This document shows, one piece after another, positions 3,531 to 63,342 of a stretch of 64,000 nucleotides of DNA. The DNA lies in assembly GCA_963082975.1 (NCBI GenBank), contig OY720344.1, forward strand, positions 94,369,228-94,433,227, given 5' to 3'. The number at the start of each line of letters is the position of its first letter. Positions within the stretch are counted from its first letter, which is position 1. Position numbers and translations under genes: made by a program. The DNA is from Labia minor. Its lineage: Eukaryota; Arthropoda; Insecta; Dermaptera; Spongiphoridae. The notes under the pieces were generated by a model. That model did not search any database, had not been told where the DNA came from, and saw only the letters and a program-made list of their open reading frames with translations.

Positions 3531-3534
3531 GTAT

Positions 3535-6490: not shown

Positions 6491-6599
6491 TTCCCGCATA
6501 GGTATAAAGAGTTGTGAATGAATATTTGGAATGTGTAAACTTGGTATTGATAAAGAGCCAGTTCGTGTTAGTTTATTGGTGTCAAATTTGATATTTGGT

Positions 6600-6632
6600 A
6601 ACATTTATATATATATATATATATATATAGAA
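6600..6632. repeat. TA microsatellite
   Basis: Uninterrupted TA run of about 26 bases. Confidence 0.9.
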
Positions 6633-7175
6633 TAAAGTGCTACTTCCAGTTAACTGATATTTTAAATGTAAAATATCTGGAAGTAAACTGTAACTTTACT
6701 AAAAAAGGTAAACGCTACTTGTATAGGTAAAATGTCACTTCCGGTAGTCAGATCATGATGAAATTTGGTATCTGAATTTTTTTCATATTTTTAAATCTTT
6801 ATACAAAATATGAAGCAAATATCTCGAAGCAAACTGGTACTTTACTTGAAAGGTAAACGCAACCAGTGTAGGTAAAGTACCACTTCCGGTTAACCGATTT
6901 TGACGTAATTTTGATAGAAATCTACAAACTGTGAATAATATCGGTATACCAAATTTCGAAGTCCTAGCTTGATTAGTATCTGAGTAAATTTGCTCACAGA
7001 CAAACATTACATACATCCATACATACACACACACCGACATAATTCGAAAAATGGTATTTTCCGACTTAGGGAGGTCTAAAACGTCAAGATCTATCGAAAT
7101 CTCGAAGTCGAAATTTTTGACGATTCCAATACTTCCCTTATACGAAGTATGCGGGGAAGTACAAATGAATGGAAA
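6633..7175 (+). repeat. Family F repeat (GATGAAATTTGGTAT type)
   Basis: It contains repeated short blocks of the form GGTAAA..CCACTTCCGGT, the phrase GATGAAATTTGGTATCTG, a later ATACCAAATTTCGAAGTC, a CA-rich spacer, and a right end with GAAGTATGCGGGGAAGTAC. Its motif vocabulary overlaps that of families A and B but it is not collinear with either. The minus-strand open frame at 6783-7193 covers the repeat and is not regarded as a gene. Confidence 0.5.
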
Positions 7176-7246
7176 GAGTGCAATAAAAAACATAGGGTTT
7201 CATAAAGGGAATTGAAGTATTTTTCGCATGTCAATATATCTATCTA

Positions 7247-7320
7247 TAGAAGTGATTCTCAACCTTTTTTTTACCACGGCACACTTTTAATGGTTTAAAA
7301 CTTTGGCGACACAAAATGAA
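7247..7320 (+). repeat. Solo hAT-like terminus
   Basis: GTGATTCTCAACCTTTTTTTTACCACGGCACAC has the look of a hAT terminal plus subterminal sequence. No second end with a target duplication is recognised. Confidence 0.4.
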
Positions 7321-7847
7321 AATGATAAGTGTAATAATCCTACCAATTTTTACCTTTTGTTTTTTAGAACCATATTGAAAAAATTGAAATTAAAGTCGGA
7401 AATGTTTAAGAGCCTGATCGCAAAAACATTTTTCCTTTATTTAAATACATATAAAGAATTCAACGGTATTTTTGCATCTGAAATATTATTTATAACTTTC
7501 CTATAGTAATAATTTTTTTTAAACTTTAAAATGATTTTGAAGTCACTTTTTGGTCTAAATACGTTATTAATTATAAACATGGCTCTATATTGTTTTAAAC
7601 ATATATTTTAATTTAAATTTGGCCCTATCAAACCGAGGTTGTTGTAATGAGATTTTATAAGGTTTCATTATGACGTCGCTTCTCATTTCCGAACAAATAG
7701 CATAATCTTAAAACAAATGAAAAATTATTATAATATCAAGCTTACGTCAATCACAATAATTATGGTTATTGTAAAAACATTTGAATTGATTAATATAAAA
7801 CTTAGTGGATAGATATGTAGGTAAATGTTGATACTATTCTATTTTAG

Positions 7848-11879: not shown

Positions 11880-11929
<50 letters not shown>

Positions 11930-11931
11930 TA
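11880..11931. repeat. Long TA microsatellite after a CT run
   Basis: A CTCTCTCTCTTTCTCTC tract leads into about 24 TA units. Confidence 0.95.
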
Positions 11932-11932
11932 G

Positions 11933-12065
11933 CTGCTCAAACCCCTTCGGCGTTCTTCACACCTAGATGGGGACTAGGTACAAAATCTTGAATAAAAATT
12001 TCTATAAATCTAGAGCATTTCTACTTCGGCTTATTAAGCCTGTTCTTACATGTTCTATAAAGAAT
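11933..12065 (-). mobile_element. Helitron 3'-end fragment (variant)
   Basis: ACTAGCTGCTCAAACCCC followed by TTCGGCG is the reverse complement of a Helitron 3' end (hairpin then CTAG before a T). The hairpin is decayed relative to the copy at 37.75 kb. The inner part beginning TAGGTACAAAATCTTGAA recurs at 28676-28770. Confidence 0.6.
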
Positions 12066-12273: not shown

Positions 12274-12600
12274 ACTAGCTGCTCAGACCGCCTTTGGCAT
12301 TCGTCAGACCTGGGCGCTCTGCTCCCTGTACCCCTGAAGTAATACATAGTATTTAGTTGAAAGTTTATATGTAAAAGGTTTTCATCCATTTTGTTTCAAT
12401 CAGTATATTACATAAAACATTCATTTTTTTCGTGTTCTTACTTTTAATATATTTTAATTTAATTAATAAATTAATTATATATTATTATTGTATATGTTAT
12501 ATCTATTTATCTATCTATCTCTGTGGCTCCACAGTACTCGAAAGTTCTTGGCCGCAACAACCACATTTCTTTAAGTGTCCCTTTTAAAATTAAAAGAGGT
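12274..12600 (-). mobile_element. Helitron 3' half with LINE fragment
   Basis: The left edge ACTAGCTGCTCAGACCGCC is the inverted Helitron terminus. Through 12500 it is collinear with the last ~230 bases of the Helitron at 36636-37781 in reverse complement, including the segment around GGTTTTCATCCATTTTG. It then enters the same LINE tail (from 12505, ATCT repeats and TCTGTGGCTCCACAG). It breaks off in the LINE at about 12600. The short minus frame at 12207-12389 lies in this element and is not a gene. Confidence 0.7.
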
Positions 12601-21214: not shown

Positions 21215-21764
21215 ACTATCTCGCCAGAGATCACAAAAATTTTCGAAGTCGAGATTTTGATGTTTTTATACGTTTTGAAGGTCCTTGAGTCATTTTCATT
21301 AAGGTTGAGAAAAGATTACGCGAAAACGGTTTGAATTAGAATAATGAAATTTGGTACACAGGCATTATTCAAAATTCATAGTTTTCTATCAACTTTTGAG
21401 AAATGTAGCTCATCCGGAAGAGGATCATTACCTACAAAGTTTTCATTTTTTTTCTCTAAACTGACTGTAAAAATAAAGATATATGTTTGATAGTTTTTCA
21501 CATGATTAAAAATTGTATAAAACTGCTATAAATAGAATATCAGCTTGATTGAATCGTTGAAAGTACCGGAATTAATTTTTTAACACTGCTAATCACGCGC
21601 CAACACGTGACATGGTGGCATCATCAAAGAGCCAAACACGCGCTGGTTTAATAAATATTATTTATTAATTTTTATTTATAATTTAATTAATTAAATTTAT
21701 TTAAATATAATATATGTTATTTAATCCAATTCAAATTGCAAGATAGTCGTGTGGAGACACTCCA
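21215..21764 (+). repeat. Family B repeat, copy 2 (near full length)
   Basis: Left terminus ACTATCTCGCCAGAG. It runs through TTTGAAGGTCCTTGAG, CGCGAAAACGGTTTG, AATTTGGTACACAGG and ACCGGAATTAATTTTTTAAC, and ends at AGATAGTCGTGTGGAGACAC. The GCGAGATAGT-type ends face each other. No coding capacity. About 550 bases, the usual full length of the family here. Confidence 0.85.
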
Positions 21765-22375
21765 TATTTTGTATTTTGTCATATAATATATTAGATTAAT
21801 TTTATTTCATTGTATCTTTTTAATGACATTAATAACATTAAAGAATTACCCTCAAAGTGGTATATTTTATTTAATAATCTCAATTAATTTTTATTTGTTT
21901 ACTCGTTAATTTATTCTCACATTAAAAATAAATAAAAGTGACATCTAACTTTATTTTAATTAGATATGTATCCTTTTAAGAAGTGATTTTGTTTACACTC
22001 TCTAACTTATTCAGCTCCCTTAATGGCTTGATATTTGATTTCATTTTTACTTTGACATTCCTCCTTAAATTAGATGGAAGTCATTGAACGCATATTCTGA
22101 TAACAAAATACATCTACCACAATGGAAGGACCCTTTTACAAAAGCTACTTCATACAATAATTAATTCATAAATAATAATAATAACATTATCAGAGTCCTG
22201 GAATATATTAGCTTTGGGTGGGGTTCTACCTTAAATTATAAAATAGTTTATATTAAATTTTTTAATAGAAAAAAAAAAACCGAGAAAATATTTTTTCTAA
22301 AAAAAGCTCTTAGGGCATGAATTGGTTAATGGACTAAGTCCCTTCTATTCTATATTGGTTCGTGCCTGGAATATG
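21765..22375. other. AT-rich DNA
   Basis: No gene recognised. It ends at the hAT target duplication. Confidence 0.45.
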
Positions 22376-22769: not shown

Positions 22770-24662
22770 TTAATGAGATGTATGCAGTTGTTTTCTTGAA
22801 ACAAGAATCTCAATATCTGGCTTAATATTGGAAACTTTTAATCTAAGATCCGGCTCTACATTTAATTTGTTTCTATATTTAGACTTAATATAAAATAGTA
22901 CCGAAAAAGCTTGTTCGCATAAATATGTTGTGCAGAATGGAATCAAGTGTTGAAGTGCTTTATTTGCAAGCGCAGGATAATCTGACCTGAGAAGTAACCA
23001 AAAGTTGCTCAATTCAGTTTTGTTAAATTTTAGTTTATAAGTTGTATCACATGATAATTCCACGAGAATATCTTGTTCAGGTGCAGATAAATGTTTAGCA
23101 TTTGTAATTTCCATATTAAATGGATCTCTGATCCAGTTATTGCAAGGATCAGGAGTAGAAAAATACTTCCTGAAGTTGCTTTTCAAAGTAATTAAATGTT
23201 CAACAAATAATTGACGCGTTTGATTAAGCAATTTTTCACTGGAGCTTTCTATGAAATCATTGAGAGTTGGAAAAGACTCATATACAGCGTTCTGGATGCG
23301 TTTCGACCACAAGTCGATTTTTTTAATCATTGCTTCTATTTTATCTTCAACTTTAAATATATTTACAACAGTACCTTGCAGGCTCAAATTAAGTTCGTTC
23401 AATTTTGTAAAAATATCAGTCAAGTAAGCCACCTTAGCTAACCAGATAAAATCATTGAAACATTCGGTCAGTTCAAAATGCGCATCTATTAAAAACAATC
23501 GTATTTCATCTCGAAGCTCAAAAAGGCGAATGAGTACTTTCCCGCGGGACAACCAACGTACATCTGTATGTAATAATAAATGTGTATGTTGACTACCCAT
23601 TTCCTCACACAAAATTTTAAAAACTCTGGAATTAAGTGGACGAGCCTTAATGAAATTGACAATTTTAACTACTTCGTCTAATGTTCTTTTCAAATCTGGT
23701 GACATATTTTTGGCTGCTAATGATTCTCTGTGAATGCAGCAATGATTCCAAACAACCTGAGGCGCAACATTTTTAATAAGAGCAATCAATCCAGTTCTTG
23801 TACCTGACATTGCACGAGCACCATCAGTGCAAATTCCAACACATTTTGGCCACTCTATTTCATTTTCGGTTATAAAATTATTCAAACTGTTAAATATGTC
23901 ATTAGCTGTCGTTCGTGAAGGTAGTGAATCACAAAACAATACATCTTCTTGTATTTGATTTTCAAACTCATATCTAATGAAAGCTAACAAATTGGCATTA
24001 TTAGTGACATCAGTACTTTCATCCAATTGTAATGAGTAATAGTGACTTTTGCGCACTCTCGATATTAATTCTTCTTTTATATTACATGACATGTCTTCAA
24101 TCCTATTCTTAACCGTATCATTTGATAATGAAATCAAATTTATATCGTTTGCTGCTTTAGTTCCTAACATTATATTTGTAATTACTTTTGTAGCAGGAAG
24201 AATTAATTGCTCTGCTATATTATGCGGCTTTCCTGCTTTAGCAATAAGTAGAGCTACTTCATATGATGCCATTACTGCTTTCTTACTCATACCACCAGAT
24301 CCCGTCTTTACCATCAATTTCTGACTTGAATTAAGTTCTTCTTTTTTCATTTTAAAAAATTCGATAGACTTACTAACATGCTCGCTGTGCTTTGTTTGTA
24401 AATGACGTCTGAGATTAGCAGGTTTCATACTTTCATTGGATAAACTTTCCTGACATAGAACGCAGACTGGTCTTTCCACATCATTGTTGCAAATATAAGT
24501 AAATCCAAATGATAAATAATCATCCGAATATTTTCTAGTTTTGCGTTTCTTGGTAGAGTTTGCTGTTGATGCCTCATCATCTGATTCTTTCCGTTTCTGT
24601 GTTGAACCAGTTTGTAGCCAACGATCCATTTTATGGAGTAATTTATTAACATTGAACTTCAA
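22770..24662 (-). CDS. hAT transposase, BED zinc finger type (ZBED5/FAM200-like)
   Basis: A 630-residue transposase that would cut and paste its own element. Residues 20-46 are Lys/Arg-rich, like a nuclear localisation segment. A BED-type zinc finger follows with C67, C70, H87 and H92. The RNase H-like catalytic core shows D214 in LQLDESTDVT, D280 in GICTDGARAMSG, and E583 in YLCEQAFSVL, the expected D-D-E set with a long insertion between the second and third residues. DVRWLSRG at 367-374 is the usual motif of this subfamily. The C-terminal dimerisation region covers about 520-605. The length is normal for this group and no stop or frameshift is seen. The ATG at 24662 is the first in frame, and MDRW at residue 12 is an alternative start. 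Domesticated relatives exist in vertebrates, but the flanking termini and target copy mark this as a transposon gene. Confidence 0.95.
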   Translation of the reverse strand: MKFNVNKLLHKMDRWLQTGSTQKRKESDDEASTANSTKKRKTRKYSDDYLSFGFTYICNNDVERPVCVLCQESLSNESMKPANLRRHLQTKHSEHVSKSIEFFKMKKEELNSSQKLMVKTGSGGMSKKAVMASYEVALLIAKAGKPHNIAEQLILPATKVITNIMLGTKAANDINLISLSNDTVKNRIEDMSCNIKEELISRVRKSHYYSLQLDESTDVTNNANLLAFIRYEFENQIQEDVLFCDSLPSRTTANDIFNSLNNFITENEIEWPKCVGICTDGARAMSGTRTGLIALIKNVAPQVVWNHCCIHRESLAAKNMSPDLKRTLDEVVKIVNFIKARPLNSRVFKILCEEMGSQHTHLLLHTDVRWLSRGKVLIRLFELRDEIRLFLIDAHFELTECFNDFIWLAKVAYLTDIFTKLNELNLSLQGTVVNIFKVEDKIEAMIKKIDLWSKRIQNAVYESFPTLNDFIESSSEKLLNQTRQLFVEHLITLKSNFRKYFSTPDPCNNWIRDPFNMEITNAKHLSAPEQDILVELSCDTTYKLKFNKTELSNFWLLLRSDYPALANKALQHLIPFCTTYLCEQAFSVLFYIKSKYRNKLNVEPDLRLKVSNIKPDIEILVSRKQLHTSH

Positions 24663-27844: not shown

Positions 27845-28001
27845 TACGGACACATAACGGACGGAGGGACGAACGGACAGACATCATGCTAAAAATACTT
27901 TTTTTCTGTTAAGAAAATGCATGATTCGTGGAGATATGTAAAAATCTCCACATGTGAAATTTGGTGTGAAAACAATACCTCCCTTAGTATCGTCGGTCGG
28001 T
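27845..28001 (-). repeat. Family A repeat, copy 2 (truncated)
   Basis: Reverse-complement copy that ends at ATCGTCGGTCGGT on the right and breaks off within the TGTCCGTC region on the left. It keeps the ACATGTGGAGATTTTTACAT block. Confidence 0.85.
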
Positions 28002-28099
28002 AAAAATCATCTATGACAAGTTTTGTTAATTTTGAAATTATATTTAAGAAAATATTCTCAAATTTGACATCATCTATATATAAAAAAAGGATTAATAGA

Positions 28100-35940: not shown

Positions 35941-35950
35941 ACCTTTTTTT

Positions 35951-36592
35951 ACCGACCGACGATAGTAAGGGAGGTATTGTTTTCACACCAAATTTCACAT
36001 GTGGAGATTTTTACATATCTCCACGAATCATGCATTTTCTTAACAGAAAAAAGTATTTTTAGCATGATGTCTGTCCGTCCGTCTGTCCGTCCGTATAGAT
36101 GTGTACAGCCTGAACGGCTTAACGGATTTTGATGAAATTTGGTATATTTACTTAATGCATCAGTGGGATGAATTGATCAACTTTTGGTGCAAATCCGGAA
36201 ACCGGAAGTGGTAGTATTAGCGATCGACGATAAGAAGGGAAGGGTTATTTTCGCACCAAATTTCACATAAGGAGATTTTTTTACATATCACCACGAATGT
36301 ATTGGTTTTATCCTCGGGAAAAATCATCTTAATTATGTTTTTCTTAATTTAAAATTATATGACGTCACCCAGCCCTTCATGACGTCACAGCCTCGGGTAA
36401 CGCCGGCAACGCCGGCTACTTCAGCTATATATTATAAATAAAATAAAATTAAAAATATTTATGTTATATCCATATCTGTTTTTTATTACATTAATAGATA
36501 TATTAAAATTATTTGAAATTGTTTCTGTAGCTGGAAATTAATTTATTTCAAACCGTCGGTCGGTTCGGACCTGGCCACAGGTCAACTTATTT
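35951..36592 (+). repeat. Family A repeat, copy 3 (full length)
   Basis: The left terminus ACCGACCGACGAT and the right terminus ACCGTCGGTCGGT are inverted copies with one mismatch. A small hairpin GACCTG..CAGGTC follows the right terminus. Between them are the ACATGTGGAGATTTTTACAT block, a TGTCCGTC run, CGGATTTTGATGAAATTTGG, ATCCGGAAACCGGAAGTGG, and paired TGACGTCA sites. No coding capacity. Confidence 0.85.
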
Positions 36593-36635
36593 AAATATTA
36601 AAAATACTTTTCATTAAAAATAAAAAAACATGAAA

Positions 36636-37781
36636 TCTATATATATAAAGGAGAGTGTTTGTATGTATGTAATTTGTTTACTTTTTTGCTGTCATAGAAA
36701 CAAAAAAAAAGAAATTTCTTACTTAACCGACACTTGGTAATTTAGAATTATAAACAAAAACAATTGAACATCAAAAAAAAATTTCTCACTTAACCGACAC
36801 TTATGCATACACGTAATGTATGATGGAATTGAAGAAGGAAATAAGATGGGGATTTAAATTAATATGGATAAATCAAAATATTTAGTAAGAGAGAAAAACA
36901 TTAACACACAAAGTCTTAACATACAAAATGTAGAATTTGAAAATGTAGAAAAATTTAAATACTTAGATTCTATAATTACAAATGATAATAATATTGGATA
37001 AGAATTTAAATCGAGGTCGCAATCGGCTAACGTCTGATATCATACAGTAAAGAGGCTTAACTCATCAAAACTTTTATCAAAATGGATGAAAATTGAAATA
37101 TTTAAAACAATTATTTTCCCTGTTGTATTATATGGGTGGTCGATGTTCTTGGAAGAAAGTAGATTTAGAAAATTTGATATTAGGATTGTTTGCAGCATTA
37201 AAGGACCAAAGAAAGATGAGATCACTGGGCTATGGCGGAGATGGTATAACGAGGAATTGCATGACCTCTATGCATCTCCAGATATAGTTAAGGTTATTAA
37301 GGTTATAAAATAGAGAAGGCTGGGATGGGAAGGGGTCATGGCTAGAATGGTAGATTAGAGATCCGCGAAATATATTTGGAAAGACCGATTGGGAAACGTC
37401 CTGAGTTATTGGGAAGACCAAGAACGTGGTGAGTGGACAATGTAGGAAGGGATGTGGGACAGATGGGACAGGGTAGGAGTTAGGTGGTTATAACTCAGAC
37501 TTGGGGGTTACTTTCGAGATCCGTAGAGCCACAGGGGTAGGTAGATTGATATAACAAATACAATAGTAATATATAATTAATTAACTGATTAAATTAAAAT
37601 ATCTTTTAAATAAGAACACAAAAAGATATGATAATATAATGTAATATACTGATTGCAACAAAATGGATGAAAACCTTTTACATACAGACTTTTAACGAAA
37701 TAATATGTATTACTTCGGGAGTACAGGGGGCGGAGCCCCCGTCTAGATGAGAAGAGCGCCGAAGGCGCTCTGATCAGCTAG
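36636..37781 (+). mobile_element. Non-autonomous Helitron carrying a LINE fragment
   Basis: The 5' end is TCTATATATATAAAGGAGAG, preceded by A. The 3' end has an 8-bp hairpin AGAGCGCC/GGCGCTCT (loop GAA, 37753-37771), six bases, then CTAG followed by T, the canonical Helitron layout between A and T. A second hairpin, GGGGGC/GCCCCC, lies at 37726-37740. The interior holds a LINE piece at about 36830-37550 in the same orientation. No Rep/helicase gene is present, so it would depend on a partner. The 5' and 3' ends match the inverted copy at 38634-40511. Confidence 0.85.
36830..37550 (+). pseudogene. LINE C-terminal fragment inside the Helitron
   Basis: Plus-strand pieces match the LINE copy at 29.0-29.85 kb: NTQSLNIQNVEFENVEKF, a VVLYGW block, then after frameshifts the ELHDLYASPDIV segment and a decayed RW-V-N-VG tail, ending with CCGTAGAGCCACAGGG. 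Several stops and frameshifts are present. The overlapping frames at 37040-37421 on both strands are fragments of this relic. Confidence 0.75.
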
Positions 37782-38633
37782 TATAATATATAAAGAGAGG
37801 TAATATAAGGATATATAAATTTTATATTTTTGTTATAGATAAGTAATTTTGTTTATTTACAAAAATTGACGTCATTAATTATAAAAAAAAAGAAAATTAA
37901 TTTCTACTTTTTTCATCTTAATGTTTAGTTTATTTTAATTTCGATCCTCGATCTTTCATTTATTGATTTAATTGAGAATAGAAGTTAAGGGAGGGAAGAA
38001 GAAGAAGAATGAAAAAATTAAGTGGGTTATCAAATGGATTATACTACCTAACTAAAAATACCATTGGGTATTAAAAACAACAAATTAGTCATTGTCTTGG
38101 CTAAGAGCCCTCCTATTTGAGTAGTTGACCATATGTTCTATAAAACATATTTATTTTGCTTTCATTTATTATTAAATAAGATCATCATGTCATATCTTAT
38201 CCAATATGATAATTATGGATCTTTTACTTTATTAATCATAATATCAACACGTGAATATCACAATCTTAACACTAAAGTCAACTGATAGTTTGACACGTTT
38301 CTAGCGTCATCTATACCACCGTTACAAGTCATGAACAATTGTGAAACAAGTTAATAGAAATAAACTAATTTCGTTTCTCTCGGAAATAAATGTTTATTCC
38401 ATACGAAATGATGATTGTTAATATACTCAGAAGTTAAATTAAATATTTCATTTATTCACTTAATATTTTTAAAATAGATTGGAAATATAGAATTTCAATT
38501 ATTCGGTGTAAAAATAGGCAGGATTAGTATCATTATCATTATCAAATACTTGGATCTTCGATTCAATTACTAATATAATTCATAAAGTTAACCTAATTTC
38601 AGTTAATAATAGCTTATATTTTTTTATTTTATA
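37782..38633. other. DNA between the two Helitrons
   Basis: Mixed AT-rich sequence with a purine-rich GAAGAAGAAGAA tract near 37998-38012. The part from 38200 to 38540 is less AT-rich and less repetitive and could be regulatory, but there is no direct evidence. Confidence 0.35.
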
Positions 38634-38843
38634 CTAGCTTCTCAGAGCGCCTTCGGCTGCAACAACCACATTTCTCCAAGTGTCCCTATCCTGAGCCCTT
38701 GTCCCATCTCTCTTACGTCCCATCCTACGCGTGTTCCGGCTAAATTTTACTTTACGGGCCTTTTTTCTAACACGTGTTTTTTGATTGATATAAAAATATA
38801 AAACATATCCCTTTCCTGTTTGAGTCAGTCTGAAGCGCGGAAC

Positions 38844-39005
38844 ATGGCGGAAACACTTAATTTAGTGAAAATTCATATGATTTGCAATAGTGATAATTTG
38901 GTTCAACAGTTGCAAGATTGGCAATTAATACCAACTGAACCGACATACAAGTGTCCCAAATGTGATGGCCCACTTAAATTAACAAGTGATACAACAAAAG
39001 TGTAA
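38844..39005 (+). pseudogene. N-terminal fragment of a Merlin/ISXO2-like transposase
   Basis: The frame (an upstream in-frame ATG lies at 38820) reads MAETLNLVKIHMICNSDN, then LQDWQLIPTEPTYKCPKCDG. A short helical segment followed by the first half of a zinc ribbon (CPKC) is how ISXO2/Merlin-type transposases begin. The second Cys pair and the whole catalytic domain are absent. The frame stops at 39003. GTAAGT follows directly at 39002, so a splice donor may have joined a lost second exon. It is not a functional transposase. Confidence 0.55.
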
Positions 39006-39250
39006 GTTTTCGGTTTTTTAAATTCAGTTTATTTTATTTTAGAAATAGTTTTATCCATACTAAAGTTATTTAAAGACTTTTTCGGTTTTTTAAATTCGGT
39101 TTATTTTATTTTAGAAATAGTTATTATTTTATTTTAGAAATAGTTTTATCCATACTAAAGTTATTTAAAGACTTTTTCGGTTTTTTAAATTCGGTTTATT
39201 TTATTTTAGAAATAGTTTTATTCATACCAAAGTTATTTAAACGCTTTTTC
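39005..39250. repeat. Three-unit tandem repeat inside the Merlin-like element
   Basis: Near-identical units contain TTTCGGTTTTTTAAATTCGG, TTTATTTTATTTTAGAAATAG and ATACTAAAGTTATTTAAA. One unit has an extra internal duplication at 39105-39140. Confidence 0.9.
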
Positions 39251-39381
39251 GCTTGTGATTTTGATTAGTTCCGCGCATTAATTTCAATAAATAATCATTT
39301 TTTTGAACATTATTTTGTGTTATTATTCATTTTTTTTAACTTTTAAAAAAGGCCCGTAAAGTAAAATTTGACCCGTCTTCC

Positions 39382-39634
39382 AAGCGGTCGTTCTCCAATC
39401 GGTCTCCCCACCAATATCTTTTTCTTCTCCCATTCTAGCCACGTCCCCTGCCTATAACCCTAACTTTTTCTGAAGATGCATAGAGGTCATGCAATTCCTC
39501 GTTATGCAGTCTCCCATTTCCGACCTCATCTTTCTTTGGCCAATAAATGCTGGGAAGAATCCTATTCTCAAATACTCTGAATCTACTCTCATCTCCCAGG
39601 TTCATAGACCATGCCTCCCATATTTTAATTTTGA
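39382..39634 (-). pseudogene. LINE C-terminal fragment within the second Helitron
   Basis: Continuation of the LINE piece interrupted by the Merlin-like element. It corresponds to the tail region with CTTCCAAGCGG, GATGCATAGAGGTCATGCAA and CCAATAAATGCTGGG. Heavily decayed. Confidence 0.8.
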
Positions 39635-39857
39635 TTAAGGTAAGTGTCCACTTGAGACAAATTCTCGAGAGAAAGTCTCGAGATTAGTTCCGAAGTGTTG
39701 TCCATTTGAGATCACTTGCGCTCTCGAGACAGCATTTGGAGACTCGACAGTCACTGCAGTCTCGAGATCGGAAAATTTTGTGTACACTTGAGAGCTTACT
39801 CTCAAGTCTCAGTCGATTCTGTGACTTGGTTGTTAGTTTTGAGATTAATTTCTTTCA

Positions 39858-39990
39858 AAATGGATTACGGCAAATCTTAGCCTTTCTAATTGTGCGTAAA
39901 ATTATGAAAAAACGGGAAGTGAAAAAAAGGCGTGTTGGGTAAGAAAATGGGTAAATCGTGAATCTTTCGCTGAATTTCATTTCCACTGCA
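39858..39990 (+). pseudogene. N-terminal fragment of a Harbinger transposase
   Basis: After a short ATGGATTACGGC start, one frame gives LAFLIVRKIMKKREVKKRRV. One frameshift later it gives WVRKWVNRESFAEFHF. The basic stretch followed by W-V-R-x-W-(x)-x-R is the typical N terminus of Harbinger transposases. The catalytic domain is missing. The track frame at 39706-39942 overlaps it by chance. Confidence 0.5.
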
Positions 39991-39994
39991 ATTT

Positions 39995-40144
39995 TCAAAT
40001 TTCGAAGCAAATTCTTCGTACATTGCCATTTTTTTCGCGATTTCTATAAAGTTTATGTTTTACATTCCATAAAAACTCTTTCTCCTCATAAAGTTCGATT
40101 AATTTAAACACTTCCTCGTCAGTCCACTCGCGCTTATCATTCAT
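39995..40144 (-). pseudogene. MADF/Myb-like partner protein, N-terminal fragment
   Basis: A 49-codon frame from ATG at 40144: REWTDEEVFKLIELYEEKEF, then LWNVKHKLYRNREKN. The pattern W-T-x-E-x(3)-L-I-x-L-Y-x(4)-L-W matches the first part of a MADF/SANT-type DNA-binding domain, the usual second gene of PIF/Harbinger elements. The frame stops at 39995 shortly before meeting the transposase remnant, so it is truncated by the internal deletion. Confidence 0.6.
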
Positions 40145-40511
40145 TTTTTAAAAAATTGATTTGTAATTTAAATTAAAGAAATATTTTAAATAAAAAGTAT
40201 CCAGACCGACTCTCAGCTCTTCCAACAATGACGGAAGACTGGTGACTAAATCTCGTGAGCAGGAATGATCATGTCCACTTGTGACAAGTGCAGTGTCTGA
40301 TACTTGTATAGGCTTGTCTCTGAGAGCGCTCTCAGACACACATACATTTGAGAGTCTTGTCTCGAGAGCAGTCTCGAGACCAATTTGTCTCAAGTGGACA
40401 CTTACCTTTATATCGGTTAAGTAAGAAATTTCTTTTTTTTTGTTTCTATGACACCAAAAAAGTAAATAAATTACATACATACAAACAAACACTCTCCTTT
40501 ATATATATAAA

Positions 40512-42466
40512 TATAAATAAATCAATTTTCCAACGCCAATTTTGGCATCATTTTCCAGAGAATTTATTTTTAAGAGAGAATGTTTAGGAATTCTGAGTCT
40601 TAGTCTGAGTAACCAAATGTCATTATTGGTATTTTGAGTTGAATGGGTGAGTAAACTTTAACTTACTCTCTTAAATTGTCATGAAACTGATGAATCTTCG
40701 ACACTTACACAAGTCCGGCTCGTTCAAACAACCCGAGTCCAATTGTAGAATAAAAGCAAAGTCGTTAATAAAGTAACGACTCTGTTAATTTTTTGTAGTT
40801 ACATCGACACTATTACAAGTGAATTTCGAGTATATAAAACTATACCATAGTAAATGAATCATAATTTATTTCATCACTATTTTAAATCGATCATGTACCA
40901 CAGAAAGAAAAGAGCCACAAAAATTAGAAATAAAAATATTGTAGTTTATATAAACTAATTTAAATGTAAATATCTAAAATAAAGTGAAAATTAGCAATAT
41001 AAGACCAATCATTATTTTTTAACATTGTCTTTAATATAATATATAAATGTGTATTATATTATAATTTATTTTTTAACGAGTTTACAGAATATTGTCTATA
41101 AATTAAAAAAAAACTAAATGTCTATATTTCTAGATGTTTATTTTGTCTAATCAATTTATATACCAATAACGTAGATGTTACATTTTTACTCTCACTTTTA
41201 TCTTTCTCTTTTAAGTTCATCAGAATTTATTTATTTTTCTAATGTTACTGATTTTTTTAAATTAATAATATTATCTTTTTTATCTCATTTCATATTTTTT
41301 TATTCCTGTGATATCGTTTTCAACTATTTTAACTCCACTTCTTATAAATTTATTTATATCAACCAACCAAGATTATAATTCAACTATCATACAACTATAT
41401 ATATATATATATATATGTAAAATAAATAAATAAAAATATATTGAAAATTTATTTTAATTCTTTCATCTTGATTTTTTAAAATGTTATATGAAAATTTATA
41501 AACGAAGCATTTAATGCTCATGATTCATGAAATTTGAAAAAATAATGTTTATTTCTCTAAGACACCATGTTGTTTGTAATATTATTAAATTTTCATTTAG
41601 AATACAAATTTAATATGCTTTCTATTTATTTAATAAATTTATTTTGGTAGGATTTAATGGAGATTATTAAACTTAATCTATCTAATCACAATTATTTATT
41701 TATTTATCTATTTTAATAATTTTTTCTTGAAATATAAAATTATCTAAAAATCAAATAATTTTCAAATTTGATTAATTAATTTAAAAAAAAAAAGTAAATT
41801 ATCTTTTTGTTATTGTTTTAGAAAATATTTATTTGAAGGTGTGCTTAGAGAATTTTCCTTAAAAGGAAAGAGAAAGTTTTCAATTATATATTTACATATG
41901 TATCAGTGAAAATGTTTTTTGAGTTTTTTCTATACAACAAACTCTCATAATTCAATCAGCAAATATTTATAGATATTTTCTTATTAGACAATATGTTAAT
42001 CCAGATAGACTAATGAATTTATTATTAAAAATAATTAATCGAAATCATCTTGTTTAAAAAAAACTAAAATAAGTTTTTATCATTATTTCTTATTTTATAA
42101 TATTTAACTGTTTCAGTTTGTATGAATGGGTGCCTTTTTTAATATTAGTTGGTTAGTAAAAAACAAAAAAGTAAGTAAATTATTTTCAAATCAATTCTTC
42201 TATAGATTTCCCTTTTAAATTTGAATTTATATTCAATAAAATTATTGCCATAAATTTGATTTTTTGGCATTACATGAATAAATAATTCTCAATACTCTTT
42301 CTTTACTTGATCTTTTTGATTAAATTTAATATTTTTTCTCAATATAATCATGATACATTATATGTAATAATATTATTTTACATTTGAGATAAGGGACACA
42401 GGAAAAAAATTGAAATATACCCTTTCTAAACAAAGGAAACATTTTATTTAATTTATTAAAATTAGC
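40512..42466. other. AT-rich DNA
   Basis: The first ~300 bases are more complex, with TGAGTC and TGAGTAA motifs at about 40592-40614. The rest is AT-rich with a TA run at 41398-41416. No supported gene. Confidence 0.4.
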
Positions 42467-42962
42467 AGGAGTGTCTCCACTCGACTAACACGCAATTTGA
42501 ATTGAATTAAATAACATAATATATTATATTTAAATTAATTTTAATTAATTATAAATTAAAATTAATAAATAATATTTGGCTTTTTGTTGATGGCACCACG
42601 TCACGTGTTGGCGCGTGAGATTTGCAGTGTTAAAAAATTAATTCTGGTAATTTCAGCAAATCAATCAAGCTGAAATTCTATATATAGCAGTTTTATACAA
42701 TTATTAATCATGTGAAAAATTATCAAACATATATCTTTATTTTTACGGTCACTTTAGAGGAAAAAAAATCAAAACGTTGAGCTACATTTCTCAAAAGTTA
42801 ACTACGAATTTTGAATAATGCCCATGTACCAAATTTCATGATTCAAACTCAAACCGTTTTTGCGTAATCTTGTCTACATACACACACACATACATACAGA
42901 CATTTTTCTCAACCTTAGTGAAAATGATTCAGGGACCTTCAAATCTCTGGCGAGATATTAAA
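42467..42962 (-). repeat. Family B repeat, copy 3
   Basis: From GGAGTGTCTCCACTCGACTA to CTGGCGAGATATTA. Slightly shortened, with a CA-rich spacer. Confidence 0.85.
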
Positions 42963-43951: not shown

Positions 43952-44485
43952 AAGCGTCTCCGCTCGATTATCTCGCAAATTTTAATTGAATTAATTTATT
44001 GGATTAATTAATTAATTCATTATACAATTTTAATTTACAGTACAGTATTGTTATTAAATTAAATTAATAATTAACATATATTAAATTTAAATTTAAAATC
44101 TTTACTTCCATTTTTAAGATAAAATTTAAAAATTAATAAAATGAATTCCGGTACTTTCAATCAAACTGAAATTCTATTTTAATCATGTGAAAAACTATCA
44201 AACATATATCTTTATTTTTACAGTCACTTTATAGGAAAAAAAATGAAAAGGTGGTAGGTAATGACCCTCTTCCGGTTGAGCTACATTTCGCAAAAGTTGA
44301 TAGAAAACTACGAATTTTGAATAATGCCTGTATACCAAATTTCATGATTCTAGCTTAAACCGTTTTTGCGTAATCTTGTCTACATTAACACAGACATTTT
44401 TCTCAAACTTAATGAAAATGACTCAGGGACCTTCAAAACATATAAAACATCAAAATCTCGACATTGAAAATTATCGTGATCGCAA
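43952..44485 (-). repeat. Family B repeat, copy 4 (diverged)
   Basis: It starts GCGTCTCCGCTCGATTATCT and ends near CTCGACATTGAAAATTATCG. It retains GACCCTCTTCCGGTTGAGCT and CAAAAGTTGATAGAAAACTA. Confidence 0.8.
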
Positions 44486-46429: not shown

Positions 46430-47556
46430 CTATCATAAACAAAAATATATAAAAAATTACAGGTATTACAATACTTTTTTATAAATGTTTCTAAATAGGT
46501 AAATAAAAAAAAAGTTTAAAATGAAATGGTTGTCTAATCGTCAGGAGCATAACAATTATACATTGTTAAATTCTCTTTTAAAATTAAAATGTAATTTTTC
46601 TTAACAAAATATTGGACTGAAAAATAATAAACTATTTATTGTTTCTATATTTTTACAAATAAATTGAATAAAATTAATTTATACATAATAATGATATTTT
46701 TATTTTTATTATATTTCAATATAAACTCTTATTGTAAATTTCAATGCATAAATTATTATTATTATTATTTTTTTGTATATAAAAAACATAATATTAATAT
46801 TTGTTTCTTATTTATTTATTCTTTTTGAGTTAAATTTAGCTTTATTTATTTTAAAATATTTTTTAACAAAAATTATAATAATATTCATTGAAAAAAAAAT
46901 AATAGTCCATTTTTTTATTTTAAATTAAATTTTAAAATTTTAAATTAATTAAAATAATTCACTTCTTTTTATAGATAAAACTTAAATACATATTTGCTTT
47001 TTGCCAAGGATTTTATGGTTAGTAAGTTTGCATCCATTAATAAACTGAGTAAATTCTTCGAAAAGAAATAAAAATTGAACCCCTAAGTGATTAAATGATT
47101 AATCATATTTGATTTTATCACTTGTGTGGGTGTATTTTTAAATAGCCCTAATGAAGTATAAATCAATAGGATAATAAATACATTAATCTCAATATTTTTT
47201 TGTGTCAATTGATAGGAGTGAAATAATTGAAGGGCAAAGGAATTTCATCTATTAATTGGCGATAAGAAACCTTTGGACAATTGGTTAGCTTGAATGAAAC
47301 CTCAGAGGTTGCTTAACTATAAAATCAACGAATAATGTCTAAAAGAAATTGATGGTTCACTTTTCAATTAAATAAACTATTTTTTTTTTCGCTATCTATT
47401 CGTATTTCAAATTTGCCAACAAAATATTTAAGTTTATTAAAATTTTTAATATATTATTAAATAAAATAATTTTTCCATTATATGGTCATAGCAATATCAA
47501 TTAAATTCTATTTATAACGGATATTTTTAAATTAATGACATGTTTTGAAAAATATC
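46430..47556. other. AT-rich DNA with a more complex patch
   Basis: Mostly AT-rich. 47190-47320 (around TTGGCGATAAGAAACC) is of higher complexity, has no long frame, and could be a conserved regulatory element. Confidence 0.3.
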
Positions 47557-47956
47557 TGGAGTGTCTCCACTTGACTATCTCGCAAATTTTAATTGGATTA
47601 ATTAACATCTATTATATTTAAAATTAATAAATAATAATTATTAAACCAGCGCGTGTTTAACTCTTTTTTGATGCCACTACGTCACGTGCAGGCGCGTGGT
47701 TGCCAGTCAACGTGTTAAAAAATTAATTCCGGTACTTTCAGCGATTCAATCAAGCTGAAATTCTATATATAGCAGTTTTATATAATTTTTAATCATGTGA
47801 AAATCTATCTTTATTTTTGCGGACAATTTAGAGGGAAAAAAATGAATACCGAAAGAGCTACATTTCTTAAAAGTTGATAGAAAACTACGAATTTTAAATA
47901 ATGCCCGTGTATAAAATTTTATTATTCTAGCTCAAACTCTCTGGCGAGATAGTAAA
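47557..47956 (-). repeat. Family B repeat, copy 5 (internally shortened)
   Basis: It begins CTGGAGTGTCTCCACTTGAC and ends CTCTGGCGAGATAGTA. Most of the segment with the CA-rich spacer is deleted. Confidence 0.85.
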
Positions 47957-51485: not shown

Positions 51486-52390
51486 TCGAAAATGTTTTTT
51501 TATGTGATTATTGTAAGACATTATGTTACAATCTTGATGGGGTTAATTTCAATGAACTGAGTGGATTAGACAGAAGATTGATAATGAAATTAACAACCCT
51601 CTCTTCTCACACTAATATCAATAGATTGGATTTCTCCACCTCTACGTGTGAATCAACAAAGAATGAAAGATAATAAACTCTTGTATAAAGAAAATAATAA
51701 TACTAATGCAAATTATTTATAATATAATTAATTTTGATCAAAATAGTTAATATAATAAGATTAATCGATATTTATTATCATTTATTTATACAATATATGT
51801 TTAAAGTAAATTAAAAATAACTGATTTATAATAAAAAAATATAATATAATAAATATTAAGGAATATTGAATCCGATTTACATTTTTTTATAATTATTTGT
51901 AATTATTTTTATAATTATAAATCTCAATTTTAACCAGCTTTCTCAGAATTATTATGAATTAATTTTATTTATGCCTAAATCTGTATGAACCTCGAGGTTC
52001 GATCCTTAGAACTTAGGTTCGGCGGACCAGGATTATAACGAAATATACAATTTAGTATATAATTAATTTAATGATTCAATTAAAAAATAAAAATTAAATG
52101 AAAGGTTTAATGTGTGTACCGATTGAAAAATTTATTTCATACAGACAGAGTGTCTAGGAAATCTGTCTGTGTAGTTAATTTGATTTATTAAAACATTCTA
52201 CTTTTTCATTTCTAGGGATGAGATAAGTGAAGATTAAACTTCCTATAAAATATAATTACCTTTATTATTTAATAATTTTTTTAAGGATTTATTTAAATTT
52301 GTAAATAATGATAATTTTTATATATGTTTTGTATTAATAATTTTATAAAGAAGTGTGTAATTTATCATTTATTTGTCAATTTCCGTCGTT
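51486..52390. other. AT-rich DNA
   Basis: Another isolated GGTTCGATCC occurs at about 51994, with no matching A box. Nothing else is supported. Confidence 0.35.
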
Positions 52391-52392
52391 TT

Positions 52393-52625
52393 ACTGACCG
52401 ATGATAGAAAGGGAAGGATTGTTTTCCCACTAAATTTCACATGTGGAGATTTTTACATTTCTCCACGAATCATGCATTTTGTTAACAGAAAAAAGTATTT
52501 TTAGCATGATGTCTTGAACTGATTTTGATAAAATTTGGTATATTTACTTAATACATCAGTTGCATAAATTCATCAACTTTTGGCGTATATCTGGAAACCG
52601 GAAGTGGTAGTTTCCAAAGTAATTA
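52393..52625 (+). repeat. Family A repeat, copy 4 (shortened)
   Basis: Left terminus ACTGACCGATGAT. It keeps the ACATGTGGAGATTTTTACAT block and GATAAAATTTGGTATATTTA but lacks the TGTCCGTC run. It ends in the CTGGAAACCGGAAGTGG region, then shares TTAATTTTATATTCATTG with copy 6 beyond it. Confidence 0.8.
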
Positions 52626-52881
52626 ATTAATTTTATATTCATTGTTGGAAATTTTTTACTTAAATTATAGTAGTAATTAATAATTGAGTTATTAAACTAA
52701 AAATAAAAACCAAGATAACATAATTTAGTCATTTTAATTCAAATTTTAAATTTTAAATAATTTTAATAAAAACCTCTTTTGAACTTATTTTCAATAAAAC
52801 CTTTACTTTTATGGTTTCTGTTGTTTGAAATACATTCAAATCAATTTGTGAATGTTATTTTTGGATAAGAAAACCTAGAAC

Positions 52882-53902: not shown

Positions 53903-55129
53903 AGAAATTATTATTATTATTAGATTATTCGTTCTTTTCATAAACAATATCGCGATTACTTTAATTGATTTTCATTTAAATTAAAAAATATAGTATAGAA
54001 AATGATTAAACATGATTTAAATTAATTTAATTAAAATTAGTTACGAGGGCAAGTCAATAAGCCATTGTTTTTTTGAATGAAACTCAGGTTTTTGAAATAA
54101 AAATTTAAATTGGTTCTTATTAATATATTATATATATAACATAGATATAAATAATTACTATTTTTAATATTATATAAAAGTTACTATTTTTCAATATGAT
54201 GTATTGTGTAATTACTAATTGATAAAAATAATACCTCCTAAGTCACCTATGACCTGGGATGAACCTGATTATTGCATTGTCATCGAAGTTACATATGTAT
54301 TTCAGCTCATTCAAACATTGGGAAGTTGGTCAAATTCACCTTGCAAATTTTGTCGACAGGACACGGTGTGGAACTAAATAAAAGCATGTAAAAAAACAGA
54401 ACAATGTAAAATAGATTTAAAGAGGAATAATTTAATTAAAATTGCATAGAAACTCTTAAAGAATATTTTTAAATTTTTAAACAGATAATCTCATGGAAAA
54501 ACATTTACAATTTTATTTTATCTTAATTGGACCACTTTAAAGTTTTTTTAAAAAAATACCTTTATGTATATTCTTTTTGATTTTTATTAATTTCTTATTG
54601 ATAATTATTAAAATTACGAATTAAATTTTAAATATGAAGTTTGAAAATACAGTAAAGTTAAATAAAAAATCTATTTTTATTTTTCTATTGTATATAAATT
54701 CATCTATAAAATTTTTTTTTTATATATTTATTGTAATAAAAATAGTAACAAATATTTTTTTATATGTATTTACAATAAAATTATACAAAAGGTATTATCA
54801 ATGAATGTGTTCTATAAATTTAACATCCACCTTCTCTTTTATTTTTCAATGAATCTATTGAAGGTTGAATGAAAATTGCGAATGATTTAATCGTATGGAA
54901 ATGTAAATAAGTTGTCGGATGGAAGAAAAGGTTTATATATACATTTATATATCTTTTGTTTATTTAGATCAGTCACATTAAAAAAAAAATTGTTTATTAC
55001 GTAACAATATTTTGTAAATGTAGGTTTCATTAGAATTGAATAAATTTTCTGACAGTTCAATAATATAAATATAAACTACAAATGAAAATATATACCATTC
55101 GATAGGTCTATAATAAATTAGATATTTTT
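53903..55129. other. AT-rich DNA
   Basis: No supported gene. 54040-54110 (AGTCAATAAGCCATTGTTTT) resembles a weak mariner-type end without a partner. Confidence 0.35.
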
Positions 55130-55669
55130 ACTATCTCGTAAAAGAGATAGTATTGCGATCATGAAAATTTTCGATGTGATGTTTTTATACGTTTTGAAGG
55201 TCCCTGAATCATTTTCACTAAGGTTGAGAAAAATGTCTGTGTGTGTGTGTGTGTGTGTGTGTAACCAAGATTACGCAAAAACGGTTTGAGCTAAAATGAT
55301 GAAATTTGGTACATGAGCATTATTCAAAATTCGTAGTTTTCTATCAACTTTTGAGAAATGTAGCTCAACCGGAAGAGAGTCATTACTTACAACGTTTTGA
55401 TTTTTTTTCCTCTAAAGTGACCGTAAAAATAAGGATATATGTTTGATAATTTTTCACATGATTAATAATTGTATAAAACTGCTATATATAGAATTTCACC
55501 TTGATTGATTCGCTGAAATTACCAGAATTAATTTGTTAACACTGCAAATCTCACGAGTCAACACGTGACGTGGTGCCATCAACAAAATTTATTTAATTAA
55601 ATTTAATTAATATATTATGTTATTTAATCCAATTCAAATTTCGAGATAGTCGAATGGAGACACTCCAGC
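55130..55669 (+). repeat. Family B repeat, copy 6 (full length)
   Basis: From ACTATCTCGTAAAAGAGATA to GGAGACACTCCAGC. It includes a GT microsatellite at 55235-55262. It abuts the mariner relic on its right. Confidence 0.9.
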
Positions 55670-55674
55670 TTATT

Positions 55675-55965
55675 TCTTTTAAAAAATGTATCATTACCTT
55701 GGCAGGGATTTTTTTCGATTTATCCCGAAGCCACTTTTGCACCGTTTCCTTAACTTCCTCATTGTTAGAAAATATTTTTCCACGTAGAGAGTCTTTGAGT
55801 GGTCCAAACAGATAAAAATAAGATGGGCCAAAGTCGGGACTGTAGGTAGAAGGAGGCAAGACCTCCCAACCCAATTTTTGAATCTTATCACGGGTAGGCT
55901 TAGGAAGCTGCAGGAAAGATGGGACAAGTGCAAAACTGTGGGAGTGATTGTATTGTTAAATAGCC
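55675..55965 (-). pseudogene. Mariner transposase, C-terminal fragment
   Basis: Minus-strand reading (one frameshift near 55875) gives PKPTRDKIQKLGWEVLPPST, then YSPDFGPSYFYLFGPLKDSL, then RGKIFSNNEEVKETVQKWL. YSPDFGPSYFYLF matches the Y-S-P-D-L-A-P-x-D-x-x-L-F block that carries the third catalytic aspartate of mariner transposases, but that position reads Y here, so the site is dead. The protein N terminus and both element ends are missing. The family B repeat truncates it on the left. Confidence 0.85.
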
Positions 55966-56499: not shown

Positions 56500-57539
56500 G
56501 GCTAGGGCAGGGCCGGCCCTAGAGCCGAGCCAGTAAGGACATGGCTCGGGGAGCTTGGCTGGCAGGGGCGCCATTATGAAAAAAAATTAATCCTTCGCAA
56601 GATATCAGGGCTTATAAGACTTAATAGTAAATAAAAAATTATGGTACGCAATAAAAAAATTGCGTTTATTTAAAATAAGTAGTAAATTATTACATTTTTA
56701 AAAATATAATGTTGATATCATACCAAGATATCTCCTTTTTAGGAAGATAAATAAAAATATTTTTTTAATAACAAACAAAAATTTTTTAGTTGATTCTTTT
56801 TTTTACCGACCGACGATAGTAAGGGAGGTATTGTTTTCACACCAAATTTCACATGTGGAGATTTTTACATATCTCCACGAATCATGCATTTTCTAAACAG
56901 AAAAAAGTATTTTTAGCATGATGTCTGTCCGTCCGTCTGTCCGTCTGTCCGTCCGTCTGTCCGTCTGTCCGTCCGTATAGATGTGTACAGCCTGAACGGC
57001 TCAACCGATTTTGATTAAATTTGGTATATTTACTTAATGCATCAGAGGGATGAATTGATCAACTTTTGGTGTATATCCGGAAACCGGAAGTGGTAGTATT
57101 AGCGATCGACGATAGGAAGGAAAGGGTTATTTTCACACCAAATTTCACATGAGGAGATTTTTTTATATATCACCACGAATCATGCACTTTGTATTGGTTT
57201 TATCCTCGAGAAAAATCATATTTATTAGTTTTTACTTGATTTAAAATTATATGACGTCATCAAGCCATTCATGACGTCACAGTCTGGTCTTACATATATA
57301 TTATAAATAAAATAAAATTAAAAATATTTATGTTATATTCATATTTGTTTTCTATTACATTAATAGATATATTAAAATTATTTGAAATTGTTTCTGTAGC
57401 TGGAAATTAATTTTTCAAACCGTCGGTCGGTTCGGACCTGGCCACAGGTCAACTTATTTTGCTTGTTAAAACATATGGGGCGAACTTTAGACCCTTGGCC
57501 TAGGGCGCCATAAGAGCTCGGGCCGTGCCTGGGCTAGGG
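56500..57539. mobile_element. Non-autonomous hAT with 8-bp target duplication and a nested repeat
   Basis: GGCTAGGG flanks both ends (56500-56507 and 57532-57539). The body 56508-57531 starts CAGGGCCGGCCCTAGAGCC and ends GAGCTCGGGCCGTGCCTG, which gives inverted hAT-style termini CAGG(G/C)..GGCC. No transposase is present. A family A repeat (56805-57450) occupies its middle and splits its own short AT-rich interior. Confidence 0.85.
56805..57450 (+). repeat. Family A repeat, copy 5, with expanded TGTCCGTC minisatellite
   Basis: Full-length copy bounded by ACCGACCGACGAT and ACCGTCGGTCGGT plus the GACCTG/CAGGTC hairpin. The (TGTCCGTCCGTC)-type run at 56923-56976 is much longer than in the other copies. 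It is inserted in the hAT element. Confidence 0.9.
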
Positions 57540-57699
57540 CTACCGGTATTAGTCTCGAAAAAATAATATTAAATTGTATAAAAATTTAAAAATTAGAATA
57601 TTTGAATTTGTTTTAATTTTAACACATGTAATCAATCATATGCATAAAGAATAGAAAATTTTGAAAATCAACTTGGTATTAAATTCAGAAAAAAATTAG

Positions 57700-58246
57700 C
57701 TGGAGTGTCTCCACTCGACTATCTCGCAATTTGAATTGGATTAAATAACATAATATATTATTTTTAAATTAAATTTAATTAATTATAAATTATAAATAAT
57801 AAATATTAAACCAGCGCATGTTTGGCTTTTTGTTGATGGCACCATGGCGTGAGATTTGCAGTGTTAAAAAATTAATTCTGTTACTTTCAGCAATTCAATC
57901 AAGCTGAAATTCTATATATAGCAGTTTTATACAATTATTAATCATGTGAAAAATTATCAAACATATATTTTTATTTTTACGGTCACTTTAGAGGAAAAAA
58001 AATCAAAACGTTCTAGGTAATGACCCTCTTCCGGTTGACCTACATTTCTCAAAAGTTGATAGAAAACTATGAATTTTGAATAATGTCCATGTACCAAATT
58101 TCATCATTCTAGCTCAAACCGTTTTTGCGTAATCTTGCCTACATACATACACACACACATACACACACACAGACATTTTTCTCAACCTTATTGAAAATGA
58201 TTCAGGAACCTTCAAAACGAATAAAAACAAATGGCGAGATAGTAAA
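57700..58246 (-). repeat. Family B repeat, copy 7 (full length)
   Basis: From CTGGAGTGTCTCCACTCGAC to ATGGCGAGATAGTA. CA-rich spacer at 58146-58172. Confidence 0.9.
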
Positions 58247-61950: not shown

Positions 61951-62815
61951 TACGCATAAAGTAATTATATTGATAAATTTAAAACTTCTCCGAATGCTTA
62001 ACTAAAGATGATTCATAGAAAGTTTTATATTTTTGAAGTTAAATTTTAGTTTCGATTTTAATATTATCTATATATATTGTACTTAAAATAATAAAAAAAA
62101 AAATTATTTGATATAATTTAAAATATAATAACATTGCAAAAGTATCTTTATAAATTTAATCGAGTTCATGCAATACTATATTACTATTTGAAACTTTGAC
62201 AACGAGTAAACAAAACCAAATAAGATAAAATTTAACATTAAAAAACTTTTTTATTAACTTAAATATTACTCTTAAAAAATAAAAAAAATTGGTAATAATA
62301 AAGTTGAAAAATATATGTATTATATATTTCTTCAAATTAATATTAATATATTAATAATAATATAATATCTAAAGCTAACTCAAGGCTTTATTTATTTATT
62401 AAAGTTTCATGAAATACTGTTCATTTAGATCTATTATTTATTAAATATAAAAGTTAAAATTTGATTTATATAATATTTTTCTATAGATATGAATTTATTA
62501 CTTTTTTATGTCAATATCCCTAATTTATTATTTTATTTTATTATAAACATTGAAATATGTAAAATAAAAGTATAAACAAGAGAAGGGTGATGAGAAAATC
62601 TACTTCTTCAAAGATAGATTTAAATAATAAAAATTTGATTATGATAAAAATGAAAAAATAAATAAATAAATCATTTTCTAGAGATAAATAAGTATATATA
62701 AATATATATATATTTTTGATTAGAACAATTTAGGAAAATAAATTTGAGTATTTTTATAATAATTTGTTCTAATCAACATATACTAATTTAATTTTTGAAA
62801 ATGATTTATTTAATT
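61951..62815. other. AT-rich DNA
   Basis: No supported gene. Confidence 0.45.
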
Positions 62816-62821
62816 CTTTTT

Positions 62822-63342
62822 ACCCACGCCGATAGGAAGGGAAGGTATTGTTTTCACACCAAATTACACATGTGGAGACTTTTCATACCTCCACGAATCA
62901 AGCATTTTGTTAACAGAAAAAGTATTTTTAGCATTATTTCTGTCCGCCTGCCCGTCTCTCCGTCTGTCCAAAATGTGTCTGTATAGACGTTTACAGCTTG
63001 TACAGCTCAACGGATTTTGATAAAATTTTGTATATTTACTTAATGCATCAGTAGCATGAATTCATCAACTTTAGGTCTATACCCGGAAACGCAAAGTTGT
63101 AGTTTACAAAGTATTAATTTTATATTCATTGTCGGTAAATTTTTCACTTAAAATATAATAATAATTAATAATTGAGTAATTAAACTAAAAATAAAAACCA
63201 AAATAATATAATTTAGTAATTTTAATTCAAGTTTTAAAAATATTTTTTTATTATACTTTATATATGGTATATATATATAATATTGTTTGGGGAAATTAAT
63301 TTATTTCAAATCGTCGGTCGGTTCTGTGACTGGCCACAGCTT
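62822..63342 (+). repeat. Family A repeat, copy 6 (diverged)
   Basis: Left end ACCCACGCCGATAGGAAGG. Right end ATCGTCGGTCGGT followed by a CTGGCCACAG remnant. A short TGTCCGTC run is at about 62940-62970. The middle is shared with copy 4 (ATTTTATATTCATTGTCGG) rather than with copies 3 and 5, so two subtypes exist. The frame at 62795-62986 lies in it. Confidence 0.8.

Follow-up and report, generated by a model that had tools for sequence, protein, structure and literature searches.

The window analyzed here, a 64,000-nucleotide stretch of the genome of the dermapteran Labia minor (GenBank assembly GCA_963082975.1, contig OY720344.1, positions 94,369,228 to 94,433,227), contains two non-autonomous Helitrons, Hel1 and Hel2, which belong to one high-copy family and carry a fragment of the same long interspersed nuclear element (LINE). 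The LINE was retro-inserted into a Helitron about 0.2 kb from the Helitron 3' end and was then copied along with it. Insertion by retrotransposition follows from a 16-bp target-site duplication (TSD), the LINE's own tail, and empty sites in two relatives (L068 and L069). A single LINE insertion, preceding the spread of the Helitron composite, is the best explanation for both lineages, with a probability of about 0.88.

Retrotransposition of a LINE into a Helitron

Within the Helitrons, the LINE end and tail run into one constant Helitron 3' segment (Table 1). LINE-like DNA lies on the same Helitron strand in Hel1 and Hel2, as an initial annotation made from the sequence alone had proposed. The window also contains four free copies of this LINE, located on the minus strand at approximately 15.6, 29.1, 49.9, and 61.6 kb. 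Each carries a GATA-type tail, beyond which the DNA is unrelated, and no target preference was seen. The frame end ...FRVP-stop is kept in the first three, and the fourth is degraded there. The YADD segment of free copy C matched the reverse transcriptase domain RVT_1 with an E value of 2.5e-5 and 24.5 bits, below the curated cutoff of 29.6. An assignment of the ~0.2-kb 3' segment to the LINE itself was dismissed, since different DNA follows the tail in the free copies.

LINE 5' junctions were compared by BLAST. The junction was visible in 11 rows (i.e., 10 distinct loci), where the LINE is preceded by TATAACATATACAATA, with 16/16 bases matching in six loci, 15/16 in one, and 14/16 in three. 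The same bases follow the LINE tail in these 10 loci (14 to 16 of 16, ungapped), and both copies match at all 16 positions in L047 and L060. The 3' copy in Hel1 reads TATAACAAATACAATA. Three inserts were measured, at 994 bp (L047), 936 bp (L033), and 933 bp (L060), each 5' truncated and ending in a GATA-type tail. The hallmarks of LINE insertion, i.e., 5' truncation, a 3' tail, and a TSD, were all found. When the flanks were joined without the LINE and used as a query (best 40 of 995 candidates scored), 2 of the 40 matches spanned the empty site (L068, 86%; L069, 81%), each with one target copy, which is degenerate in L068. The other 38 end at base 69, where the 5' duplication finishes.

One LINE insertion or two

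Among 29 loci fetched with the LINE piece of Hel2 (L033 to L061), the Helitron segment lies downstream of the LINE in the same orientation in 26 and is missing there in L056, L057, and L061. The 3-kb locus L054 contains, in opposite orientation, another two Helitron 3' segments that have LINE-type tails. Altogether, 69 Helitron 3' segments were examined, with Hel1 entered three times and L029 twice. LINE sequence or a LINE tail is present in 66, an insertion displaces one (L047), and two are LINE-less. A strict tail score was passed by 56 of the 66, while the tail is shortened in 8 and reduced to remnants in 2. The initial annotation held that the LINE was captured before the Helitrons spread. 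Acquisition before the spread is upheld by the common site and orientation in 66 of 69 segments, in a sample biased toward LINE-bearing copies, and by the two LINE-less relatives; the capture itself is not.

Several points weigh against a single insertion. The count of 66 in 69 is biased, since the majority of loci were retrieved with queries that contained LINE sequence. In a LINE tree that kept 34 of 38 rows (4 were too short and were dropped) and left 16 of 31 inner branches unresolved, the Hel1 LINE did not group with the Hel2-type LINEs but stood alone on a branch of 0.16, with the base of the tree unresolved. Between the Hel1 consensus and the Hel2-type consensus, the LINE differs at 15.4% of positions (89/578) and the Helitron 3' segment at 9.3% (21/226; Fisher P = 0.023). 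Constraint on the Helitron end could explain the lower divergence of the 3' segment, as could separate histories. With free copy E as an additional reference, only three of six informative sites group Hel1 and the Hel2 type together. The LINE 5' boundaries also differ between Hel1 and Hel2, and neither has the 5' copy of the duplication, so their membership rests on their relatives. The long separate branch, the greater divergence of the LINE, and the differing 5' boundaries would suit two independent insertions, with the Hel1 lineage receiving its LINE separately from the lineage of Hel2 and the long form described below. The 3' junction nevertheless lies at the same Helitron place in both lineages. 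With no target shared among the four free copies, a single event is more likely than two that hit one site, and we consider two insertions improbable.

Still less credible is that a Helitron captured the LINE DNA during rolling-circle replication, by read-through or template switching. Pick-up of flanking DNA by Helitron read-through is known (PMC4778049). However, the LINE here is internal, 5' truncated, and ends in its own 3' tail, and a 16-bp stretch of Helitron sequence is duplicated on its two sides; each of the two LINE-less copies has this stretch once. Capture was rejected on account of this duplication. Insertion of a retrotransposon has a precedent among proposals for Helentron/DINE-1 elements, likewise rolling-circle elements. 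Their CR1-like endonuclease is traced to one of two proposed sources, retrotransposon insertion into a Helitron or DNA transduction (PMC4067079). Unlike the part described there, the LINE part of the present family is reverse transcriptase open reading frame (ORF) sequence and not a functional endonuclease; its frame already contains stop codons in the 1,149-bp Hel1 consensus, and the Helitron ends are canonical.

Helitron ends and arrangement

Hel1 is intact at both ends, with the termini A/TC...CTAG/T (slashes mark the element boundaries). Those of Hel2 are A/TT...CTAG/T, with TT where Hel1 has TC. A 22-base 5' motif (up to three mismatches) and an 18-base 3' motif each occur twice in the window, with zero occurrences expected by chance for either. 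The TC 5' and CTRR 3' termini, the insertion between A and T, and the lack of a TSD are those of Helitrons. The ends, the A-T target, and the motif counts bear out the presence of two Helitrons of one family, as first annotated. Their arrangement had been given as head to head, but the 3' ends (37781 and 38634) face each other across 852 bp, and the pair is tail to tail.

The Hel1 family has TC...CTAG termini and an AT target in common with Helitrons of the Helibat/Helraiser type (PMC4778049), and its 19-bp palindrome lies 10 nucleotides from the 3' end, compared with 11 in Helraiser. Unlike those elements, the copies here are 1.15 to 1.87 kb long, lack a Rep/helicase ORF, and carry a retro-inserted LINE. 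Chance or low-complexity resemblance in this AT-rich region (24 to 32% G+C in three 2-kb windows from 36001 to 42000) is a negligible explanation for the Helitron signals, against which stand the zero matches expected for either motif and the 40 long copies among 40 scored Hel1 candidates. Viral contigs scanned with both end motifs gave zero matches for each. No Rfam match (gathering threshold) and no tRNA were found in the window.

Family size and recent amplification

Hel1 was searched against the 604-Mb genome from which the window comes, and the best 40 of 8,005 first-look candidates were scored. They yielded 56 matches, of which the 40 longest are 90 to 100% identical to the query. Of 28 loci compared (L001 to L028, with Hel1 among them), 19 align over the full length; exactly the Hel1 termini occur in 13 of these, and the other 6 differ by one base. 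The loci lie 1.3 to 4.3% from the consensus; they are the best-scoring copies, and the true spread of the family is wider.

A long form of 1,868 bp (L029, positions 5793 to 7660) begins with ~0.8 kb of Helitron DNA, which is followed by the LINE and the 3' segment. A 661-bp LINE-free piece of it is 99 to 100% identical in all 40 scored places (best 40 of 1,795 candidates), and the 1.87-kb form has therefore amplified recently. All six long-form copies fetched have LINE sequence and start with A/TC, and five end with CTAG/T; L062, the remaining one, is rearranged, and the extraction limits truncate it. Their main pieces are 97.9 to 98.9% identical to L029. Hel1 and Hel2 are different deletion derivatives of this longer, recently amplified element, a point absent from the initial annotation. 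Hel1 lacks the 5' duplication copy and part of the LINE, and Hel2 and L035 have in common a Helitron 5' end joined directly to the LINE. The window contains a third family copy (Table 1). Just downstream of it, at ~11925 to 11975 on the minus strand, is another Helitron-like 3' terminus with a CTAG end, and a long TA run comes after it.

Later changes in Hel2

Two elements were inserted into Hel2 after its divergence from sibling copies, in agreement with the initial annotation. PIF/Harbinger elements generate a 3-bp TTA/TAA TSD. The Harbinger-type insert has terminal inverted repeats matching at 26 of 31 positions and lies between two TAA copies, where the empty site in L035 reads ACCGATATAATCAAAATT with a single TAA. 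The TTA/TAA duplication and a MADF/Myb-like ORF are features held in common with PIF/Harbinger. Unlike those elements, the insert is 770 bp long, with only short ORFs in the six-frame translation.

The Merlin-type insert has terminal inverted repeats matching at 27 of 29 positions. It is flanked by CGTGTTCC and CGTCTTCC (7/8 matching), and the corresponding empty site in L036 reads CTTGGAAGACGCGTAGG, as predicted, where Hel2 has the element between GGAAGACG and GGAACACG. After the empty sites had been found, a first boundary (an inverted repeat of ~25 bp with an AAATTT duplication) was replaced by GG ends with an 8-bp TSD. Other copies share these 636-bp boundaries, with matches of up to 99% (86 matches from the best 40 of 506 candidates). 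One such copy (L071) has the TSD ATTAATTT, 8/8 by eye, and its first G reads A. The ends thus have the terminal GG and a TSD within the 8 or 9 bp of Merlin. A 53-codon open stretch resembles, we presume, the N-terminal exon of a Merlin/IS1595-type transposase. Neither DDE_Tnp_IS1595 nor another Pfam transposase domain matched this 53-amino-acid stretch, the sole part scanned, in which a C-terminal DDE domain would not be expected to lie. Since that stretch has no transposase domain match, the putative Merlin name draws on the ends, the duplication, and the presumed resemblance. Terminal GG and an 8-bp TSD also characterize Merlin (PMC8101967), from which the Hel2 element differs in its 636-bp length and in a short N-terminal-like open stretch without a DDE match.

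The initial annotation further described four stacked transposon classes with a readable insertion order. The ends, TSDs, and empty sites support the stack; the order of the Merlin-type and Harbinger-type elements is not readable from nesting because neither sits inside the other.

A 3' deletion, not mentioned in the initial annotation, joined the LINE of Hel2 directly to the last bases of the Helitron and removed the terminator hairpin. A GC-rich 3' hairpin was found in Hel1 (z score, -6.4) and in the long form (-3.8) and is lost in Hel2 (+1.1 for 38635 to 38694). The Hel2 3' junction (query bases 88 to 106) was spanned by 1 of 40 scored matches (best 40 of 61 candidates), which is Hel2 itself. 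A Hel1-family copy in L010 (~2082 to 2115) is also without the terminator hairpin and keeps TCAGCTAG (CTAG); Hel2 is therefore not the sole copy with such damage. Loss of the Helraiser hairpin lowers transposition and raises noncanonical events (PMC4778049), so Hel2 is probably now immobile or imprecise.

Table 1. Annotated features of the Helitrons and their inserts (window coordinates)
Feature	Position	Strand	Remarks
Hel1	36636..37781	+	Complete non-autonomous Helitron, 1,146 bp, TC...CTAG, between A and T; 28 loci compared, including itself
LINE remnant in Hel1	36826..37549	+	Part of reverse transcriptase ORF to 3' GATA-type tail; 5' boundary approximate; aligned to free copies and consensus
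3' copy of LINE TSD in Hel1	37550..37565	+	Family form given in the text
Helitron 3' segment, 3' of LINE in Hel1	37566..37781	+	Common to family
First GC-rich hairpin near Hel1 3' end	37726..37740	+
Terminator-type hairpin, Hel1	37753..37771	+	19-bp palindrome, 10 nucleotides before 3' terminus; z score of -6.4 for 37722 to 37781
Hel2	38634..40511	-	Second Helitron of family, non-autonomous, 1,878 bp with both inserts counted; 3' terminus at 38634
LINE remnant of Hel2, 3' part	38655..38737	-	Deletion joins LINE to last ~21 bp of Helitron
Merlin-type element	38738..39373	.	636 bp; 29-bp terminal inverted repeats from GG; 8-bp TSD at 38730-38737 and 39374-39381
53-codon open stretch	38844..39002	+	Presumably like N-terminal Merlin/IS1595-type transposase exon; no Pfam transposase match
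LINE remnant of Hel2, 5' part	39374..39634	-	5' boundary approximate
PIF/Harbinger-type element	39638..40407	.	770 bp; TSD TTA at 39635-39637 and 40408-40410
49-amino-acid ORF in Harbinger-type element	39995..40144	-	MADF/Myb-SANT, PF10545, E value 3.1e-5, 24.7 bits, cutoff 22
Third family copy	12275..12583	-	LINE 3' end and Helitron 3' segment, same junction, CTAG end

Other repeats in the window

A ~550-bp repeat has seven copies in the window (3534 to 3947, 21229 to 21777, 42458 to 42943, 44133 to 44485, 47533 to 47937, 55124 to 55696, and 57684 to 58230) and recurs in three stretches of L029. The four copies whose ends were read finish near GAGTGGAGACACTCCAGCTAAT or close variants, i.e., a hairpin followed by CTAA/T, and the repeat looks like a second Helitron-type family. 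Another family, starting near TTTTTACCGACCGACGATAG, occupies positions 67 to 610, 27857 to 28010, 35944 to 36592, 52389 to 52750, 56797 to 57459, and 62813 to 63238. Several of its copies contain a TCCGTCCGTC microsatellite, and an inverted CCGTCGGTCGG near the end of two suggests terminal inverted repeats. An uninterrupted 630-codon transposase-like ORF (22770 to 24662, minus strand) weakly matches the hAT C-terminal dimerization domain (E value, 8.6e-4; 19.5 bits; cutoff, 21.4).

Proposed history and significance

The history of the family would begin with a 5'-truncated LINE entering a non-autonomous Helitron by target-primed reverse transcription and generating the 16-bp TSD. Rolling-circle transposition, presumably driven in trans by an autonomous Helitron, would then have spread the composite genome-wide. 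Internal deletions gave rise to several composite subfamilies, namely the recently amplified 1.87-kb form, the Hel1 subfamily of 1.15 kb, and the lineage of L035 and Hel2; Hel2 later gained its Harbinger-type and Merlin-type elements and lost its 3' hairpin.

The locus is a well-resolved but ordinary nested-transposon history, and no new kind of element is revealed. Helitrons with other DNA and LINE parts in rolling-circle elements are already known; literature searches returned no title that we recognized as describing the present family, which is a new and unusually well documented case. It is conceivable, if doubtful, that the LINE-bearing Helitron is still amplifying and has become the chief multiplier of a dead LINE fragment, with the majority of recent copies of this LINE's 3' end produced by rolling-circle transposition; the insert may even have been neutral or helpful to the success of its carrier. 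The family provides a natural example, with both occupied and empty sites, of a retrotransposon fragment becoming a Helitron passenger through ordinary insertion and not capture. LINE copy numbers and ages obtained by repeat masking may be inflated via such Helitron amplification.

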